In this document: piece by piece, positions 29,870 to 62,114 of the stretch
How positions within the stretch are numbered: position 1 is the first letter of the stretch
How the letters are laid out: every line of letters begins with the position of its first letter
Virus record (IMG/VR): IMGVR_UViG_3300036831_000148
Span: 62,001-126,000 of that record
Reading direction: 5' to 3' (one strand)
Source: a virus
DNA: 64,000 bases
Notes under the pieces: generated by a model
Told to the model about the DNA's origin: nothing
The model's database searches: none
What the model saw: only the letters and a program-made list of their open reading frames with translations
Made by a program: the position numbers and the translations under genes

Positions 29870-31315
29870 CTATCCGTCCAGGCCGAGGTAGTCCCCGCCC
29901 GCCTCGTCCCGGTCAGTGAAGCAACTGGTGGCGAAGTCGGCGGTCAGCGGGAACCGCTTGCCGCGCGGCCCGTCGCGGTTCTTCAGCACCGTCACCTCCA
30001 GGGGGGTGCGGCGCCCGAAAGAGCGGTCCTCGTCGGCATTGGACAGCGCCAGCACCACGCCCGGCGTCCGGCTGGCCTCGTCGGTGGCCGACAGGTCGTC
30101 CAGGGAGAAGCCGCCGCTCACCTTCATCTGCTTGCGTCCCTCCCGGCTGGACTGCCACGGGGTGATGAGGGGGACGCCGCGCCCGTCCATGAACGTCTGC
30201 GCCCAGCGGTGGGCCGCCTTGATGATCCCGGCGAGCGTCTCGTACTCGCGCGCGTCGCGCCCGGCCCGCTCCGGGCTGAACAACTGCAGGTAATCGACGA
30301 CGACCAGGTCCGGCGGCACCGACCGGGCGATGGCGGCGGCGCGCGCGGCCATCACCGACACCGTGCACCGCTGCGGCATCTGCACCACGTTGAGCTGCCC
30401 GTAAGGGCCGTTCTTCAGGTCGGCGAGCACGGCGACCAGGGCGCTCTCCTCGCCCTCGGTGAGCCGCCCGCCGCGGATGGCGGCGCTGTTGATGCCCTCG
30501 GGCAGGCCGAACTTCGGCAGCCTGGAGTGCCGGGCGGCGATCTTCACGCGCAGCGCGGAGCGGAGCTGCTCGGTGGTGAACACCAGGACGTTGCGGCCTT
30601 CCATCACCGCGTTATGCCAGGCGGTCTGCACGCACAGGGACGACTTGCCCGCCGTGGTGCCGGCCATGACCACGGCCATCTCCCCGTCGCCCAGCCCGCC
30701 GTCCAGGTAGTCGTCCAGGGACTTGAGGCCGAACTGGATGCCGGGGACCTTGCCGGACACCCGCAGTTGCTTAGCCGCCACGTAGGCGGCCAGGATGTCG
30801 TCGCCCTCGCCGGTGACGTTGCCGCCGGGGCTGTCGGAGGCGCCGCCGGCCCGCTCGGCGTCGGCGAAGGACGCCAGCACGTACTCGCGCGCGTCGGCGT
30901 GCCCGGACAGCACCCGGCCGTCGTCCAGCCGGACCTCGTCGCGCATGATCTGCATCCCGGTAGCCAGCGCGTCCCCGGTCGCCCGGTCGGCGGCCAGGTC
31001 GCGGAGCTGGTCAACCGAGTGCCTGAACTCGTGCGGCTCAGGAGCCAGCGCGGCCATGGCGTCGTACGCCTCCCCGTACATCAGGGAGGTCCCCGGCCGC
31101 TTGCCGCGCAGCAGGTCGCTGAGCGCCTTGCGGCTCATGATCCCGCCGTACTGGTCCATGTACCAGACAAGCAGCAGGAACAGCTTGCGCTGCACCGGGT
31201 CGGTGAAGTGCTCCTCCTCCAGGCGGGCTGACGCGTACTCCAGGGCCTTCACCGACCCGGTGCCCGCCACCACGGCGGACAGGACGGTCCTCGCGTGCGC
31301 TACCGCGTCGGCCAT
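29870..31315 (-). CDS. dnaB: Replicative DNA helicase, DnaB family
   Basis: 481 residues from the ATG in a TGATG junction. The N-terminal domain (about 5-110) has the DnaB helical pattern. The RecA-like motor carries Walker A GTTAGKSSL (about 232-240), Walker B VVVDYLQL, and an R-G-K-R-F-P-L-T arginine-finger region near the end. It unwinds DNA at the fork. Residues added by a longer upstream frame are Pro/Arg-rich and overlap the methyltransferase, so they are rejected. Confidence 0.93.
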   Translation of the reverse strand: MADAVAHARTVLSAVVAGTGSVKALEYASARLEEEHFTDPVQRKLFLLLVWYMDQYGGIMSRKALSDLLRGKRPGTSLMYGEAYDAMAALAPEPHEFRHSVDQLRDLAADRATGDALATGMQIMRDEVRLDDGRVLSGHADAREYVLASFADAERAGGASDSPGGNVTGEGDDILAAYVAAKQLRVSGKVPGIQFGLKSLDDYLDGGLGDGEMAVVMAGTTAGKSSLCVQTAWHNAVMEGRNVLVFTTEQLRSALRVKIAARHSRLPKFGLPEGINSAAIRGGRLTEGEESALVAVLADLKNGPYGQLNVVQMPQRCTVSVMAARAAAIARSVPPDLVVVDYLQLFSPERAGRDAREYETLAGIIKAAHRWAQTFMDGRGVPLITPWQSSREGRKQMKVSGGFSLDDLSATDEASRTPGVVLALSNADEDRSFGRRTPLEVTVLKNRDGPRGKRFPLTADFATSCFTDRDEAGGDYLGLDG

Positions 31316-32820
31316 CAGGCAGCCTCGTCCCGCTCGGCTGCCAGGCGGCTGAGGATGACGTGCATGCCGTAGAGCGCCTGCTGAGGGACCACCCCGTTGC
31401 CGAGCAGCTTCAGCTTCGCGCTGCGCGACAGGCGGGGCACGCCGGTGACGTGCCCCTCGGGCAGGCCCATCATCCACTCCACGAACACCGGGGACAGGGT
31501 GCGGTTCCCGCTGCGGCCGACGGCCAGCGGGTACGGGGCCGCGCGGCCGAACACCCGCTGCCAGCGCCGCACCGCCGCCGCGTACTTCCCCCAGTCAACC
31601 TCCGGCTCGGCGGCGACCGAGATCGCCAGGCCGGGCAGCAGGAGCTCGCCGCCGCGCTCGCCGCCCCGGCTGTGGTGCCCGCCGACGCCGTCGGAGGCTG
31701 AGGGCGAGGGCAGCAGGTCGTCCACCACCCCGTCCAGCAGCGGCCCGGTCAGGCTCTCCCTGCGCCGGTGGGTGGCGTTCGGGGTGGGCAGCAGGTCTTC
31801 TTCCGGCAGGTTCTCCACCTCGTCGGCCAGGGTCGGCCCGTGCCCGCCGGCCCGGCGCTTGTCCGGGTGCTGGCTGCCGCCGTTCACCGCCAACTGGGCG
31901 GTGGGCGTCTTCAGCAGGGAGATCGCCTCCACCAGGGTCCCGCCTTCGCGGCCCTTGGCGTCAGTGACCAGCCCGGCGTTACTGCCGAGGGTGGCCGACG
32001 GGGTGGGCAGCAGGCCAGCGACCGCGGCGGGCAGGTCATTGTCGCCCTCGGTGCGCTCGCGGCCGGACGGGCGCGGCTCCCGGTCCCCGGGGTTCCCGTC
32101 GCCCTTGAAGTCGGTGGCGCCCGGAGTGGGCAGCAGCGCGCCCAGCAGGGTCGGGTTGCCGCGCACGTACACGGTGCTGGCCCGGTCCCCGTCGGCGGCC
32201 ACCGGCGTCGGCAGCAGGCCGGCGACCGCCGGGCCCAGGTCGTCGCCGTGCCTGCCGTTCAGGGTGGACGGCGACGGGGCCGTGGTAGAGCTGCCGCCGC
32301 TCACCCGCGGGGTGGGCAGCAGTTCACGGGGAACCTGGCCGCTGGCGAGCTCCAGCGCCTGCTCCAGGCCGAGGCCGCTAGCCGCGCCGCGGGGGGTGCG
32401 TCCGTAGCGCTCGGCGTTGGCCCCGGTCAGCGCGGCGCGCGAGTTCCGGTTGCCGCCTCCGACCCGCGGCGTGGGCAGCAGCCCGTCTTCAGCGTCCTGC
32501 AGTGTCTGCGCGACCACGGCGAGACTGGAGATGGTGTAGCGCGGCCCGCCCGGCAGGGCGGCGCGCATCGCCAGGTGCCCTTCCGGGCTCTTGCCGTCGT
32601 CATGCGCGCACGGCGTGGGCGGCAACTGGCCAGGCGAGGATGAAGACCCGCTCCCGCCGGTGGCACCCGCCGATGTCGGCTGCGGAAACAACTTGCCACT
32701 CCGCATCGAACCCGAGGTCGGAAAGGTCGCCGAGAACGGCACCAAGTGCCCGCAGAGGCCGAGCTGTGGAGTCTCCCACACACACCTCGCAGGGTTCCAC
32801 ACCGCTATGAGCCCTAGCAC
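31315..32820 (-). CDS. C5-methyltransferase second half with LLPTP repeats
   Basis: 501 residues from GTG 32820 (GAGGGG upstream). The C-terminal SAKLKLLGNGVVPQQA region is motif IX-X of cytosine-5 methyltransferases. The middle carries about eight LLPTP-x-A-x-D/G units spaced 25-60 residues, in the place of the target-recognition domain. The first 73 codons overlap the first-half gene in another frame, yet read like the P-F-S-x-T-x-P-x-S-G-x-M-R-S-G lead known from such proteins. Likely works with the 191-residue partner as a split enzyme. Confidence 0.7.
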   Translation of the reverse strand: MLGLIAVWNPARCVWETPQLGLCGHLVPFSATFPTSGSMRSGKLFPQPTSAGATGGSGSSSSPGQLPPTPCAHDDGKSPEGHLAMRAALPGGPRYTISSLAVVAQTLQDAEDGLLPTPRVGGGNRNSRAALTGANAERYGRTPRGAASGLGLEQALELASGQVPRELLPTPRVSGGSSTTAPSPSTLNGRHGDDLGPAVAGLLPTPVAADGDRASTVYVRGNPTLLGALLPTPGATDFKGDGNPGDREPRPSGRERTEGDNDLPAAVAGLLPTPSATLGSNAGLVTDAKGREGGTLVEAISLLKTPTAQLAVNGGSQHPDKRRAGGHGPTLADEVENLPEEDLLPTPNATHRRRESLTGPLLDGVVDDLLPSPSASDGVGGHHSRGGERGGELLLPGLAISVAAEPEVDWGKYAAAVRRWQRVFGRAAPYPLAVGRSGNRTLSPVFVEWMMGLPEGHVTGVPRLSRSAKLKLLGNGVVPQQALYGMHVILSRLAAERDEAA

Positions 32821-33175
32821 TGAACAGACCCCTCACGTTCTCGATCACGACCAGGTCAGGATGCAGGATGCCGATCGCCCTGGCCATGTGGTACCAGGCG
32901 CCGCTGCGGTTGCCCGGAAGCAGCCCGCCGCGCATCCCGGACACTGATACGTCCTGGCAGGGAAACCCGCCCGCCAGGATGCTGACCGGCGGGACCTGCG
33001 TCCAGTCCACCTTGCCGATGTCTCCCAGGTTGGGCACGCCCGGGTAGCGGGCGGCGAGCACGGCGGAGGCGTCCGGGTCGTTGTCGGCGACCCAGGCGAC
33101 CTCGGCGCCGAACATCGCGCAGACCGCCGCGTCCAGGCCGCCGTAGCCGCTGCAGACGCTGCCAACGGTGGTCAC
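32600..33175 (-). CDS. Cytosine-5 DNA methyltransferase, catalytic first half
   Basis: 191 residues. Motif I (CSGYGGLD), motif IV with the catalytic Cys (GGFPCQDVS), motif VI (VIENVRG) and motif VIII (RRERVFI) are all present. The protein stops right after motif VIII; motifs IX-X are in the overlapping gene 31315-32820. M.AquI and M.EcoHK31I are known split methyltransferases of this kind encoded by overlapping frames. Methylation of phage DNA against restriction is the likely purpose. Confidence 0.85.
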   Translation of the reverse strand: MTTVGSVCSGYGGLDAAVCAMFGAEVAWVADNDPDASAVLAARYPGVPNLGDIGKVDWTQVPPVSILAGGFPCQDVSVSGMRGGLLPGNRSGAWYHMARAIGILHPDLVVIENVRGLFSARAHSGVEPCEVCVGDSTARPLRALGAVLGDLSDLGFDAEWQVVSAADIGGCHRRERVFILAWPVAAHAVRA

Positions 33176-34079: not shown

Positions 34080-34369
34080 CAGTTGAGGTAATCCCCGCTG
34101 CGCGGCTGCGGCCAGGTTGCGGCAAGCTGGTCAAACGGCCCCTCGTCCTCGCTGTCCGTCTCCCCGGACAGCACCACCACCTGGGCGTCCGCGCCGGCCC
34201 CGTCCTCACAGTGCGGAGCGATCTCGGCCGCGACGTACTCCTCAGCCCCCGCCCGGTCCAGCCAGACCAGCGGCGAGCCGGGCCCGCCCTCGCTGTACCG
34301 GGTGGCCAGTTCGTACTTCAGCGGGCTAGCGTCAACCAGCACCTCTACCGCGTACAGGGTGTACCTCAT
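34079..34369 (-). CDS. Hypothetical acidic protein, 96 residues
   Basis: Begins with a beta-rich MRYTLYAVEVLVDASPLKYE segment and continues as an acidic alpha/beta sequence. It overlaps the sigma-factor stop by 4 nt (ATGA). Not recognised. Confidence 0.6.
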   Translation of the reverse strand: MRYTLYAVEVLVDASPLKYELATRYSEGGPGSPLVWLDRAGAEEYVAAEIAPHCEDGAGADAQVVVLSGETDSEDEGPFDQLAATWPQPRSGDYLN

Positions 34370-35058
34370 GCGACCGCCTTCATCATCGCGCCGTGAATCT
34401 CCAGGATCGCCTCCCGGTGCAGCCGGGAGGCCTCGTCCTCTGTTACGCCCGCGAGGGCCGCCGCCTCCGGAAAGGGCAGGCCGTGGTAATAGCGGAGCGC
34501 CAGGATCACCCGGGACCGCTCCGGCAGCCGGGTCACCGTGCCCGACAGGGCCAGCAGCACCTCGCCGACCACCGCCTGGCCCTCCACGTCGTCCTCGCCC
34601 GCCACGTCGTGCGGCTCGGCGTCAATCGACACCGGCCGCGCGGCCACCGCCGCGTTGGTCTCGCGCACCTCGGCCAGCGTCATCCCGGTCGCCCTCGCCA
34701 GCTCGGCGTCAGACAGGCCGCGGTCCTGGCCGGCGTCCCGCAGCGCCTTCGCCCGGGTCCGGGCGCTGCGGGTTACCCAGTCCTGGGCGCGCAGGTGGTC
34801 CAGCATCGCGCCGCGCATCCGGCGCAGCGCGTACGCCCGGAAGTACTCGAACCGGGCCGGGTCGTGCCCTTTCTGCGCGCAGTACACCGGCCAGCGCGCG
34901 GCGGCGGCCGCCAGGCCGGACAGCGCCAGCGACTCCAGCTCGTCTATCTCCAGGGCGTGCGGCGCGCGCTGCCACACCCGGTACGCCTCCGGGCGGGCGG
35001 ACGGCACGATCTCGGCGGTGAGCTCGGCGACCCGCGCCCGGACAGCAGCGTCATCCAT
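34366..35058 (-). CDS. Sigma-70 family RNA polymerase factor
   Basis: 230 residues from ATG 35058. Region 2 is visible as FEYFRAYALRRMRGAMLDHLRAQDW, region 3 near DAELARATGMTLAEV, and region 4 as LPERSRVILALRYYHG with a following helix-turn-helix (FPEAAALAGVTEDEASRLH). This layout matches the SigB/SigF/FliA group. It would direct host polymerase to phage promoters. Longer upstream starts overlap the HTH gene in shadow sequence. Confidence 0.88.
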   Translation of the reverse strand: MDDAAVRARVAELTAEIVPSARPEAYRVWQRAPHALEIDELESLALSGLAAAAARWPVYCAQKGHDPARFEYFRAYALRRMRGAMLDHLRAQDWVTRSARTRAKALRDAGQDRGLSDAELARATGMTLAEVRETNAAVAARPVSIDAEPHDVAGEDDVEGQAVVGEVLLALSGTVTRLPERSRVILALRYYHGLPFPEAAALAGVTEDEASRLHREAILEIHGAMMKAVA

Positions 35059-35272
35059 TGTCCTGCTCGACTTCCCGCCGGGCGGGGGCGATGACGGTGC
35101 CGATTTCGGCGCGGGGGATGCCGCAGTGGTCGGCGAGCTGCTCGTCTGTCCAGTCCCGGTGAACCCGGAGCGCCTTCTTGGCAGCCAGGAACCACTCAAC
35201 TCGTGTAGAGGCCATGCCGCGCGAATCGTCACGCACCACCAGACGCGGTAACAGCCCGGCGGTGACGGTCAC
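35051..35272 (-). CDS. Small HTH DNA-binding protein
   Basis: 73 residues from GTG 35272, or 54 from ATG 35215. Residues 26-66 (FLAAKKALRVHRDWTDEQLADHCGIPRAEIG) have helix-turn-helix spacing. Overlaps the sigma gene by 8 nt. A CCCTC-ACGC-GAGGG hairpin lies 20-30 nt upstream, so expression may be controlled there. A candidate repressor. Confidence 0.55.
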   Translation of the reverse strand: MTVTAGLLPRLVVRDDSRGMASTRVEWFLAAKKALRVHRDWTDEQLADHCGIPRAEIGTVIAPARREVEQDNG

Positions 35273-36081: not shown

Positions 36082-36110
36082 ATCCTAGCATCCTCTTGAC
36101 CAGAGTCAAG
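36082..36110 (-). promoter_or_regulatory. Promoter with palindromic operator
   Basis: TTGACT, 16 bp, TAGGAT on the minus strand; the ATG at 36075 lies 6 nt past the -10. The -35 is inside CTTGACCAGAGTCAAG (36095-36110), which also overlaps the last codons of the helicase gene. Confidence 0.7.
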
Positions 36111-37806
36111 CGGCGATGCGCCCGTACGCCAGCATCCGCACCTGCTGCGCCGGGGACACCCCGGCGGTGAACAGCGCCTGCTCCTCGTCCCACACCGCCG
36201 CCGAGATCCCGGCCTCGCGGCGCAGCAGCGGCAGGTAGGCGTCCTCCTGGGTGCCGCGGGCCAGCGCGTGCAGGATGTAGACGGTCGGGAACGGGCTGCC
36301 CTGGCGGGCGACCCGGCCGATGAGCTGCTCCATCCGGGCCGGGTTCAAGATGGTGTCCACCGCCAGCAGGTAGCGCGCCGCCTGCAGGTTGAGCGAGGCC
36401 TCGATCGTGGTGGTGCCCACCAGCACCCGGCAACTGGGGTCGTAGCGGAACCGGTCCAGCCGGCGCGCCCGCTCTTTCTTGTCGGTCTCCGCCGACCACA
36501 TGAGCGTGCCGCCGATGCCCGCCGCCTTCAGCCGGGCCGCCAGGGCGGCCACGTTCGGCTTGAAGTAGACGAAGATGACCGCCTTCTCACCGGACAGGTC
36601 GCCGGTGAGCAGGTTCATCACCCAGTCCAGCTTCACCGACACGTCCGCGCCCGGTCCCTCGTCCACCGCCGCCAGGCCCGAGCAGATCTGCGAGCCGAGG
36701 GTGAACGCGGCGCCCGCCGCGGCCCGGCCGACCTCCTCGCCCTGCTTGAGCAGCCGGCGCACGGTGCCTGCCCGCAGCTCGTCGTACCGCTTGCGCTGGG
36801 CGGGCAGCAGGTCCATGAACACCGGGCTGTACTGGATGGCAGGCATGGTCACGTCGCCGCCCAGGTCCTCCGCCCGGCGGCGCAGCACCAGCGGCCGGAT
36901 GGCGTCGCGGAACTCCCTCAGCAGCCGCGGGTCGGAGGTGATGCCGGAGTCCACCTGGACGACCTTGGACACCCGGGTCCGGCCGGTCTTGTCCCAGGGC
37001 GCGGCGGCGACGATCTCCTTGCGCGTCTGGGTGACGTAGCGCGAGCGAACCCGCTCCAGGGAGCCGAGCCGGTCCCGGCCGCCGACCGGCTGCAGGAAGC
37101 CCCAGAGCTCAGTCAGCCGCTTCTGGACCGGGGTGGCGTGCAGCCCGATCACCCGCGAGCACTGGCCGGCGAGCCGGTTGACCGCGTAGGAGGCCTCGGT
37201 CTCCGGGTTGCGCAGCGGGTCGATGTCGTCGTACACCAGGATGCCGACCGGGAACTGCAGCAGTTCCTCCACGTCGCCCTCGCGCCGCCTCTTGCCCTTG
37301 CCCGCGCCGGACAGGGTGCGGTCGGAGATGACCGCGACCTCCCAGTTGCTCATGTAGCCGCGGGTGCGCTGGGCGGGCGTGCCGTCGGCCACGTAGACGT
37401 TCACCCCGCGCAGCAGGCGGCGCAGCTCGCCCGCCCACGGGTCGTGCACCGCCGGGGCCCGGCAGACGATCACCGCCCGGTTGCCCAGGCCGAGCTCCCC
37501 GTGCTCCTTGCACATGGCCAGCACCGAGATCACCTGGGCGGTCTTGCCCGAGCCGGTCGCGTCCGACAGCAGGCCGGGCGGTCCCATGTACATCCACGCG
37601 GCGCCCACCCGCTGGTGGCGGCGCAGCACGATGCCGCAGTCGCGGCACAGCACCGGGCTCACCAGGTCCGGCGCGTGCCGCCGGCAGGGGCCGGAGTTGA
37701 AGTACTTCAGGTCCGGCCAGTCCAGGATGTCGGGCAGGGCGCGGATCTGGTCAGCCACCCGGCGTCGGGCGGCACGGCTCATGAGGGCAGCATCGGGAAG
37801 GGCCAC
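36106..37806 (-). CDS. SNF2-type helicase/ATPase
   Basis: 566 residues. Walker A is ATGSGKTAQ (about 75-83), motif II reads VYDDID instead of the usual DE-x-H, motif III region HATPVQKR, and motifs V-VI are GTTTIEASLNLQAA and QLIGRVARQG. A CRRH/CRDCG cluster near the start may bind zinc. SNF2 enzymes move along double-stranded DNA; phage members help displace proteins or restart replication. The GTG start follows TAG TAA CGGGG. Confidence 0.85.
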   Translation of the reverse strand: MALPDAALMSRAARRRVADQIRALPDILDWPDLKYFNSGPCRRHAPDLVSPVLCRDCGIVLRRHQRVGAAWMYMGPPGLLSDATGSGKTAQVISVLAMCKEHGELGLGNRAVIVCRAPAVHDPWAGELRRLLRGVNVYVADGTPAQRTRGYMSNWEVAVISDRTLSGAGKGKRRREGDVEELLQFPVGILVYDDIDPLRNPETEASYAVNRLAGQCSRVIGLHATPVQKRLTELWGFLQPVGGRDRLGSLERVRSRYVTQTRKEIVAAAPWDKTGRTRVSKVVQVDSGITSDPRLLREFRDAIRPLVLRRRAEDLGGDVTMPAIQYSPVFMDLLPAQRKRYDELRAGTVRRLLKQGEEVGRAAAGAAFTLGSQICSGLAAVDEGPGADVSVKLDWVMNLLTGDLSGEKAVIFVYFKPNVAALAARLKAAGIGGTLMWSAETDKKERARRLDRFRYDPSCRVLVGTTTIEASLNLQAARYLLAVDTILNPARMEQLIGRVARQGSPFPTVYILHALARGTQEDAYLPLLRREAGISAAVWDEEQALFTAGVSPAQQVRMLAYGRIAA

Positions 37807-61929: not shown

Positions 61930-62114
61930 GTAAGAACCGGCCTCTTCCACAGGACTACGTCTACCGGCCAGAGGGCGACGTGGAACCAGCAGAGGTCGTT
62001 GTTGAAGTTGGCGCACCACCAGTACCCGAATGGCCGGTGCCGGTCGATCGAGAACGCGAACTGCCCAACCTCAACCTCAACCGCGAACACCGCCCCCATC
62101 CACTTAAACCTCAT
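61920..62114 (-). CDS. Small Trp-rich protein, 64 residues
   Basis: ATG 62114 after GAAGGGCAGGCAC. Aromatic beta-rich (MRFKWMGAVFAVEVEVGQFA, FGYWWCANFNNDLCWFHV). Its stop lies inside the next operator. Not recognised. Confidence 0.6.
   Translation of the reverse strand: MRFKWMGAVFAVEVEVGQFAFSIDRHRPFGYWWCANFNNDLCWFHVALWPVDVVLWKRPVLTLT

Follow-up and report, generated by a model that had tools for sequence, protein, structure and literature searches.

A two-frame phage locus predicted to encode a C5-cytosine methyltransferase with an overprinted target-recognition subunit

The virus record IMGVR_UViG_3300036831_000148 carries a C5-cytosine methyltransferase spread over two overlapping reading frames, which raises the question of whether the gene is broken, is read through by frameshifting, or encodes two proteins that share one piece of DNA. 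The stretch considered here, referred to as the window, consists of 64,000 nucleotides (positions 62001–126000 of the 146,268-base record), and all coordinates are those of the window. Comparison with several hundred relatives indicates that the locus very probably encodes a two-protein methyltransferase, in which a catalytic subunit is accompanied by a target-recognition subunit overprinted on it in the +1 frame.

Both frames lie on the minus strand in a +1 relation and share 221 nucleotides (32600–32820), in agreement with an earlier note on this DNA, and the amino-acid strings quoted in that note are present in the sequence. The first frame (frame 0; 32600–33175, 191 amino acids, GTG start) is the catalytic half of a C5-methyltransferase with motifs I–VIII. 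Its translation contains PCQD and ENV, where PCQ is motif IV and ENV is motif VI, and it matches positions 3–160 of the 324 positions of the Pfam profile PF00145 (E 6.8e-27), as well as the structures of M.HhaI (best E 1e-9) and M.HaeIII in the PDB. The second frame (frame +1; 31315–32820, 501 amino acids, GTG start) is composed of three parts. The first is a lead of residues 1–65 (32626–32820), overprinted on motifs VI–VIII of frame 0. It is followed by nine LPTP-type units of 26–53 amino acids (residues 66–405, 31606–32625), a candidate target-recognition region. The last part contains motifs IX and X (approximately residues 438–485, 31366–31509), delimited by the invariant and near-invariant columns of 45 aligned split proteins. 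The 501-residue frame has no Pfam match at 0.001, and motifs IX–X are not detected by Pfam; they were located by the motif pattern and by the match to PHROG 1008, 'DNA methyltransferase', which reaches residue 498 (E 6e-62). With its conserved lead, LPTP units and IX tail, the window protein belongs to the LPTP-lead proteins of PHROG 1008. The guanine-plus-cytosine (GC) content of third codon positions follows the same division: in frame 0 it is 0.92 before the overlap and drops to 0.67 within it, and it is 0.94 in the phase of the second frame where that frame alone is read.

One rival explanation of such an arrangement is decay, in which an originally whole gene was disrupted by a frameshift and the open frame of the lead has no meaning. 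The split in Mycobacterium phage Ovechkin does look recent, as it is one frame change away from intact relatives. In the window, however, the methylase frame has accumulated 8 stops between the lead and the IX–X tail, yet the adjoining +1 frame is intact and codon-biased; therefore, the split is not explicable by one sequencing error. The +1 proteins of split loci are moreover under purifying selection (ratio of nonsynonymous to synonymous differences, pN/pS, of 0.07), and 27 split loci form a well-supported clade. Decay is thus extremely unlikely. The 8 stops, the pN/pS and the third-position GC likewise rule out a sequencing error or a simple pseudogene.

The relatives were next examined for leads that stand apart from a methylase. 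The earlier note had likened the lead to those of LPTP proteins in other methylases, had proposed that it arose by overprinting, and had suggested comparing its homologues with the +1 frame of the methylase; the outcome bears out these proposals. The comparison covered 376 loci, most of them found through the frame-2 lead itself and with some contigs recurring between scans: viral contigs (up to 80 loci listed from each scan) and bacterial genomes (48), both scanned with lead profiles, a scan with motifs I–VIII (80), the window, and eight phage loci. By profile, the lead is present in 367 of the 376, and in each of these it is the +1 reading of motifs VI–VIII of a methylase, which occupies the −1 frame relative to the lead (287 of 287 among 296 loci, and 80 of 80 in the others). 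A detached lead, i.e., one lacking an overlapping methylase, was found in none of the 367. Matches in Microcystis and Bacteroides phages seemed detached at first, and the methylase overlap was found there too. Seven further named phage loci, read by eye, have the same layout. The nine loci below the lead threshold, all among the 296, comprise six from the motif I–VIII scan and three fetched by lead scans. The bias expected from finding loci by their lead was checked with the motif I–VIII scan, which does not use the lead: 74 of its 80 loci carry one, and the result for the array, described below, is repeated.

The next question is whether the lead is a by-product of the methylase sequence. The earlier note had supposed that a generic motif VII–VIII read in +1 yields a similar string, but on its own such a reading is not enough to produce the lead. 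For the frame tests, 199 of the 287 lead-bearing loci passed length and stop filters, and 146 non-redundant loci remained after removal of near-copies; the recoding test leaves out one of these, of unclear class. With a profile built from 26 low-GC split relatives only, the window lead scores 53.3 bits, and two sets of 100 synonymous recodings reach at most 22.3 and 36.1 bits. The same profile gives the real lead a mean of 64.6 bits in 103 intact loci and 60.6 bits in the 13 other split loci, against means of 11–19 bits for their synonymous recodings. In all 119 loci tested, none of the 200 recodings per locus attained the score of the real lead. Since recoding fails to reproduce it, the lead is maintained by selection and does not simply follow from the methylase sequence. 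The possibility that it results from GC-rich third positions is ruled out as well, as the 26 split loci at 41–54% GC retain the lead and recoding destroys it.

Further evidence comes from substitutions. Among the intact loci (103; 4210 pairs), the ratio of observed to expected synonymous differences in frame 0 is 0.86–1.18 as far as motif VI, 0.26–0.67 over the lead, and again 0.95–1.12 at motif VIII. In split loci (39; 544 pairs) the corresponding values are 0.38–0.61 over the lead and 0.72–0.91 at motif VIII. Within the lead, pN/pS is 0.58–0.90 in the +1 frame and 1.28–2.62 in the third frame, and the +1 frame of the part before the lead gives 1.39–7.89.

The position at which the +1 reading begins is also marked. 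A GTG within the frame-0 sequence LLSA (AGT GCN), 13 codons before a conserved VWET, occurs in 67 of 134 non-redundant loci, and an ATG takes its place in 2 more. The window GTG (32818–32820, minus strand), set within frame-0 FSA (TTC AGT GCT), is this conserved start, the most-used one in the family. Upstream of it lies GAGGGG (32829–32834), a possible ribosome-binding sequence within frame-0 VRG, and at least 44 of the 69 starts at the conserved site are preceded by AGGA, GAGG or GGAGG. The codon choice of the methylase points in the same direction. In intact loci the serine codon at the start site is AGT in 68 of 102, compared with 2.5% of 680 other upstream serine codons. The same contrast holds in split loci (16 of 39 versus 11.7% of 274) and in non-redundant loci of the motif I–VIII scan (15 of 19 versus 2.5% of 122).

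These observations bear on a second alternative, programmed +1 frameshifting near the end of motif VIII, which would yield a single full-length protein in the window. Such a shift would join motifs I–VIII to the LPTP units, IX and X, and frame 0 does end inside the shared part. However, the +1 frame is under selection from the end of motif VI onwards, ahead of every point where a shift would be useful, and a start codon is favoured at that very place. In intact loci, furthermore, the shift would lead into a +1 frame that lacks IX–X. On this evidence from selection, start codons and motif placement, frameshifting is rated as very unlikely, and separate initiation of a second protein is preferred.

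The intact loci extend the finding beyond split genes. By motif patterns, three arrangements can be distinguished among the 367 lead-bearing loci. In the intact type (139 loci), motifs IX and X stay in frame 0 and the +1 frame holds the lead and array. In the split type (72 loci, the window among them), both motifs are in +1. In the nested type (72 loci), IX is in +1 and X is in frame 0. A further 75 loci are outside the three types and nine are cut off. What the +1 proteins of every arrangement share is the lead and the array. The nested type was followed in 77 complete loci, where X is in frame 0 in 74 and in +1 in none, and IX is in +1 in 45 by the strict pattern and in frame 0 in none; its +1 protein forms a clear family (36 aligned). 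A scan for this type gave at least 600 stretches, of which 566 are confirmed relatives, so the nested form is common in this collection.

Past motif VIII, the frame that is conserved can be read from the codon position at which differences fall. Where frame 0 alone is open in intact loci, differences are 0.193, 0.172 and 0.422 at frame-0 positions 1, 2 and 3. Where both frames are open, they are 0.397, 0.183 and 0.139, with the peak at frame-0 position 1, which is the wobble position of the +1 frame. Split loci in the region where +1 alone is open give 0.45, 0.177 and 0.106. The pN/pS ratios agree: 0.09 in +1 and 5.76 in frame 0 for the both-open region of intact loci, and 0.07 and 6.62, respectively, for the +1-only region of split loci; ratios exceeding 1 in the alternative frame mirror the wobble position, as expected, and do not signify positive selection. 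Intact loci from the motif I–VIII scan (0.13 in +1, 2.57 in frame 0) and from bacterial genomes (0.18 and 2.09) behave alike, and the +1 pattern is also present in the both-open stretch of split or unassigned loci of the motif I–VIII scan (0.18 versus 1.08). In the nested type, the part past the lead has pN/pS of 0.28 in +1, 0.62 in frame 0 and 2.12 in the third frame.

In intact loci, frame 0 stays open as well. Of the 97 non-redundant intact loci with at least 30 both-open codons, 96 keep frame 0 open throughout that stretch, where random recoding of the +1 frame predicts 16.3 or 40.6; the intact class is defined by IX–X in frame 0, which favours such openness somewhat. The long frame-0 protein therefore seems to be kept, although it is poorly constrained where the +1 protein is constrained. 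In the same 97 loci, at least one LPTP motif is found in +1 in 64, and the real +1 sequences average 1.36 such motifs per locus, a figure that drops to 0.10 once frame 0 is recoded. To judge from these substitution and recoding patterns, both frames are coding and selected. The picture of an overprinted split arrangement in the earlier note holds for the window, but the overprinting is not special to split genes, as intact relatives as a group keep a selected +1 frame.

It could be argued that intact loci merely inherited the +1 signature from split ancestors and have since lost its translation. The IX–X tail repeatedly changes frame, which makes recent conversion possible. Nevertheless, intact loci that are 93–99.9% identical still differ mainly at the +1 wobble position (184, 40 and 34 differences at frame-0 positions 1, 2 and 3; 35 high-scoring segment pairs, HSPs), with pN/pS of 0.10 in +1 and 2.49 in frame 0, and of 0.08 in frame 0 after the +1 stop. 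The pattern among such close relatives implies that the constraint is current, and an inherited signature is very unlikely.

The frame changes of the tail can be placed on a tree of 88 frame-0 parts, in which a length filter left only one nested-type row. Split and intact types interchange at least 8 times on well-supported branches, bootstrap values being not yet settled, and the clade of 27 split loci mentioned above is recovered. In the wider family, the lead and array are conserved in +1 whether the methylase frame is broken or not, and it is the IX–X tail that changes frame.

Related array units are found in both frames. Of the 32 families with at least four members into which 774 LPTP units from intact-type and split loci were grouped, 13 are found in both frames. 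One family, which includes a unit of the window, spans up to 131 loci; family sizes are upper bounds, because the grouping is by single linkage and contigs are repeated. Part of one window unit (31814–31919, minus strand) has 80% DNA identity to a unit of Arthrobacter phage KBurrousTX. When a 24-kb stretch of the window was compared with phage records at the sensitivity of megablast, nothing else matched.

Structure prediction for the window +1 protein is informative at the two ends. The predicted local distance difference test (pLDDT) score in the lead is 81–84 for residues 1–20 and 82 for residues 41–50, and lower between them; in the tail it is 94–95 for residues 411–470 and about 75 for residues 471–490. 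A Foldseek comparison of the model with the PDB gave 45 rows at E ≤10, the first 31 of which are chains of eukaryotic-type DNA methyltransferases (best E 0.54). The comparison with predicted viral structures gave three matches better than 0.001, headed by a DNA methylase of phage Dorothy. A sequence search of the PDB with both profiles returned nothing at E ≤10, and the nested-type protein was modelled with low confidence (pLDDT 58.8).

Several observations weigh against a two-protein enzyme with a selected recognition subunit. The +1 pN/pS of the lead quoted above means that it tolerates amino-acid change and is only moderately constrained as a protein, and in intact loci from the motif I–VIII scan its value of 0.90 is separated by a small gap from 1.28 in the third frame. 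Split loci have a short stretch open in both frames (23 sequences, 47 HSPs), and there the differences (0.239, 0.103 and 0.344) fall mostly on frame-0 position 3, contrary to the +1 pattern. The conserved GTG, present in half of the loci, is not universal, and 43 of 134 have an alternative ATG or GTG 6 codons into the lead. The LPTP array is modelled at low confidence, mostly with pLDDT below 50, and the window +1 model has no fold match in the PDB at E ≤0.001 by Foldseek. Among the 367 loci, 39 have X in frame 0 with no recognisable IX and 36 fitted no class. Finally, the window is on a long branch of the tree and its position is unsure.

The proposed mechanism of the two-protein enzyme is as follows. 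Frame 0 would provide the S-adenosylmethionine-binding and catalytic part with motifs I–VIII. The second gene would be translated in +1 from a start immediately behind motif VI (ENV), which in the window is the GTG at 32820; its product would contain, in order, the lead, the LPTP array, and motifs IX and X. The two products would then assemble into one enzyme, with the lead as the part likely to join the +1 protein to the catalytic subunit. The array probably reads the target, because it is situated between motifs VIII and IX, the place of the target-recognition region. The predicted enzyme would methylate the phage DNA, most likely against host restriction, as is assumed from orphan phage methylases in general.

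A broader proposal can be put forward with confidence only slightly above even. Phage and prophage C5-methyltransferases may include a large class of two-subunit enzymes, many of them annotated as single genes, whose specificity subunit is overprinted in the +1 frame as exchangeable LPTP recognition cassettes, usable in either frame. Recombination would reshuffle the target and leave the catalytic part untouched, as with HsdS in type I enzymes.

Naturally split C5-methyltransferases are not without precedent. In M.EcoHK31I, the gene of the small subunit lies inside that of the large one, in a different frame. M.AquI and M.EcoHK31I are described as two-polypeptide C5-methyltransferases in the available text of PMC3404938 and PMC3439449. 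According to that of PMC3404938, the large subunit of M.EcoHK31I contains motifs I–VIII and X along with the predicted target-recognition domain, and the small subunit contains motif IX. The likeness of the window to M.EcoHK31I, compared by description, is that of two natural polypeptides; the window differs in having X in the second protein and only a partial overlap, and so is not of the EcoHK31I type. The M.EcoHK31I partition (IX in +1, X in frame 0) is, by pattern, that of the 72 nested-type loci. A further difference from M.EcoHK31I, as far as the available text describes it, is that here the selected sequence of the target-recognition region lies in the second frame and not in the large subunit. 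M.AquI, as given in the same portion of PMC3404938, has I–VIII in one subunit and IX–X in the other, with the variable region divided between them. The window shares this partition between its two genes, and differs from M.AquI in its overprinted conserved lead and LPTP array, neither of which appears in that portion of the source.

Other comparisons concern tandem units and hidden frames. Multispecific phage C5-methyltransferases of the Bacillus phage type carry tandem recognition units between motifs VIII and IX of a single polypeptide read in one frame. Several tandem units between VIII and IX are a feature in common with them, whereas here the enzyme is spread over two frames and the LPTP units are candidate recognition units only. 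The ShiLan element, a hidden out-of-frame HNH endonuclease in a phage methylase (excerpted from PMC11855218), resembles the present case as a hidden coding frame in an actinophage methylase gene that leaves the host frame open. In contrast, by the same excerpt, the ShiLan element is a homing insertion read in the third frame, and the hidden frame here belongs to the methylase itself. PMC9957025, in the part available, deals with recombination within a family of phage methylases. The open-access literature searched contained no account of a +1 recognition subunit conserved among PHROG 1008-type methylases, the accessible portions of PMC11855218 and PMC9957025 being nearest and making no mention of it.

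Annotation of the relatives reflects the two frames unevenly. Among 50,697 phage records, tblastn at 1e-5 matches the first part of the window methylase in 1336 and the second part in 568. Lymara 76/77, Kampy 78/77 and Winget 6/5 are annotated gene pairs, some overlapping only briefly and others at length. These pairs share the +1 protein profile of PHROG 1008, lead included, with the window; the difference is that selected dual coding is unrecorded in their feature tables. MilanaBonita and Girafales, of the intact type, have a single annotated gene, and the +1 gene is missing from their feature tables. In Geodirt, the second frame alone is annotated as the methylase. Babsiella has an annotated short nested gene 55 (L003:2681–2989), a +1 gene called 'DNA methylase domain protein', which is an annotation trace of the hidden frame.

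Individual loci add further variety. Compared with Babsiella and Girafales, the frame change behind the Ovechkin split (L004/L010) seems to lie in the array, and this split is a natural example of the IX–X tail changing frame. Two loci (L017, L020) have two methylase N-parts each, within 1.5 kb, and each N-part has its own +1 lead. In five others (L026, L029, L041, L042 and L044), a non-matching stretch interrupts the motif I–VIII part, with the same frame on both sides; by analogy with the homing elements known from phage methylases, these interruptions may be inserts of that kind. A frame change in the methylase itself, upstream of the lead, is found in L007 and L025; in the former, Polka14, the two methylase pieces are annotated as separate genes.

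In the window, all neighbours noted are on the minus strand. The methylase pair is followed by a DnaB-type helicase frame (29870–31477). Its listed start, a GTG at 31477, is probably placed too far upstream, since an ATG at 31315 shares bases with the stop codon of the +1 methylase frame (TGATGG). Upstream of the methylase are a sigma-70-like factor (34366–35232) and an SNF2-type helicase (36106–37806).

The two-protein reading has several consequences for this family of enzymes. M.AquI and M.EcoHK31I, so far textbook oddities, would become examples of a wide class. The lead would clearly exemplify the origin of a protein segment through overprinting, one for which the selection on each of the two frames has been measured. 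In methylases that look like ordinary single genes, the likely target-recognition partner is often unannotated; a deposited phage methylase may thus lack half of the enzyme in its annotation, and cloning of the single gene may fail. Finally, the exchange of overprinted cassettes would offer a testable route by which orphan phage methylases change their target.

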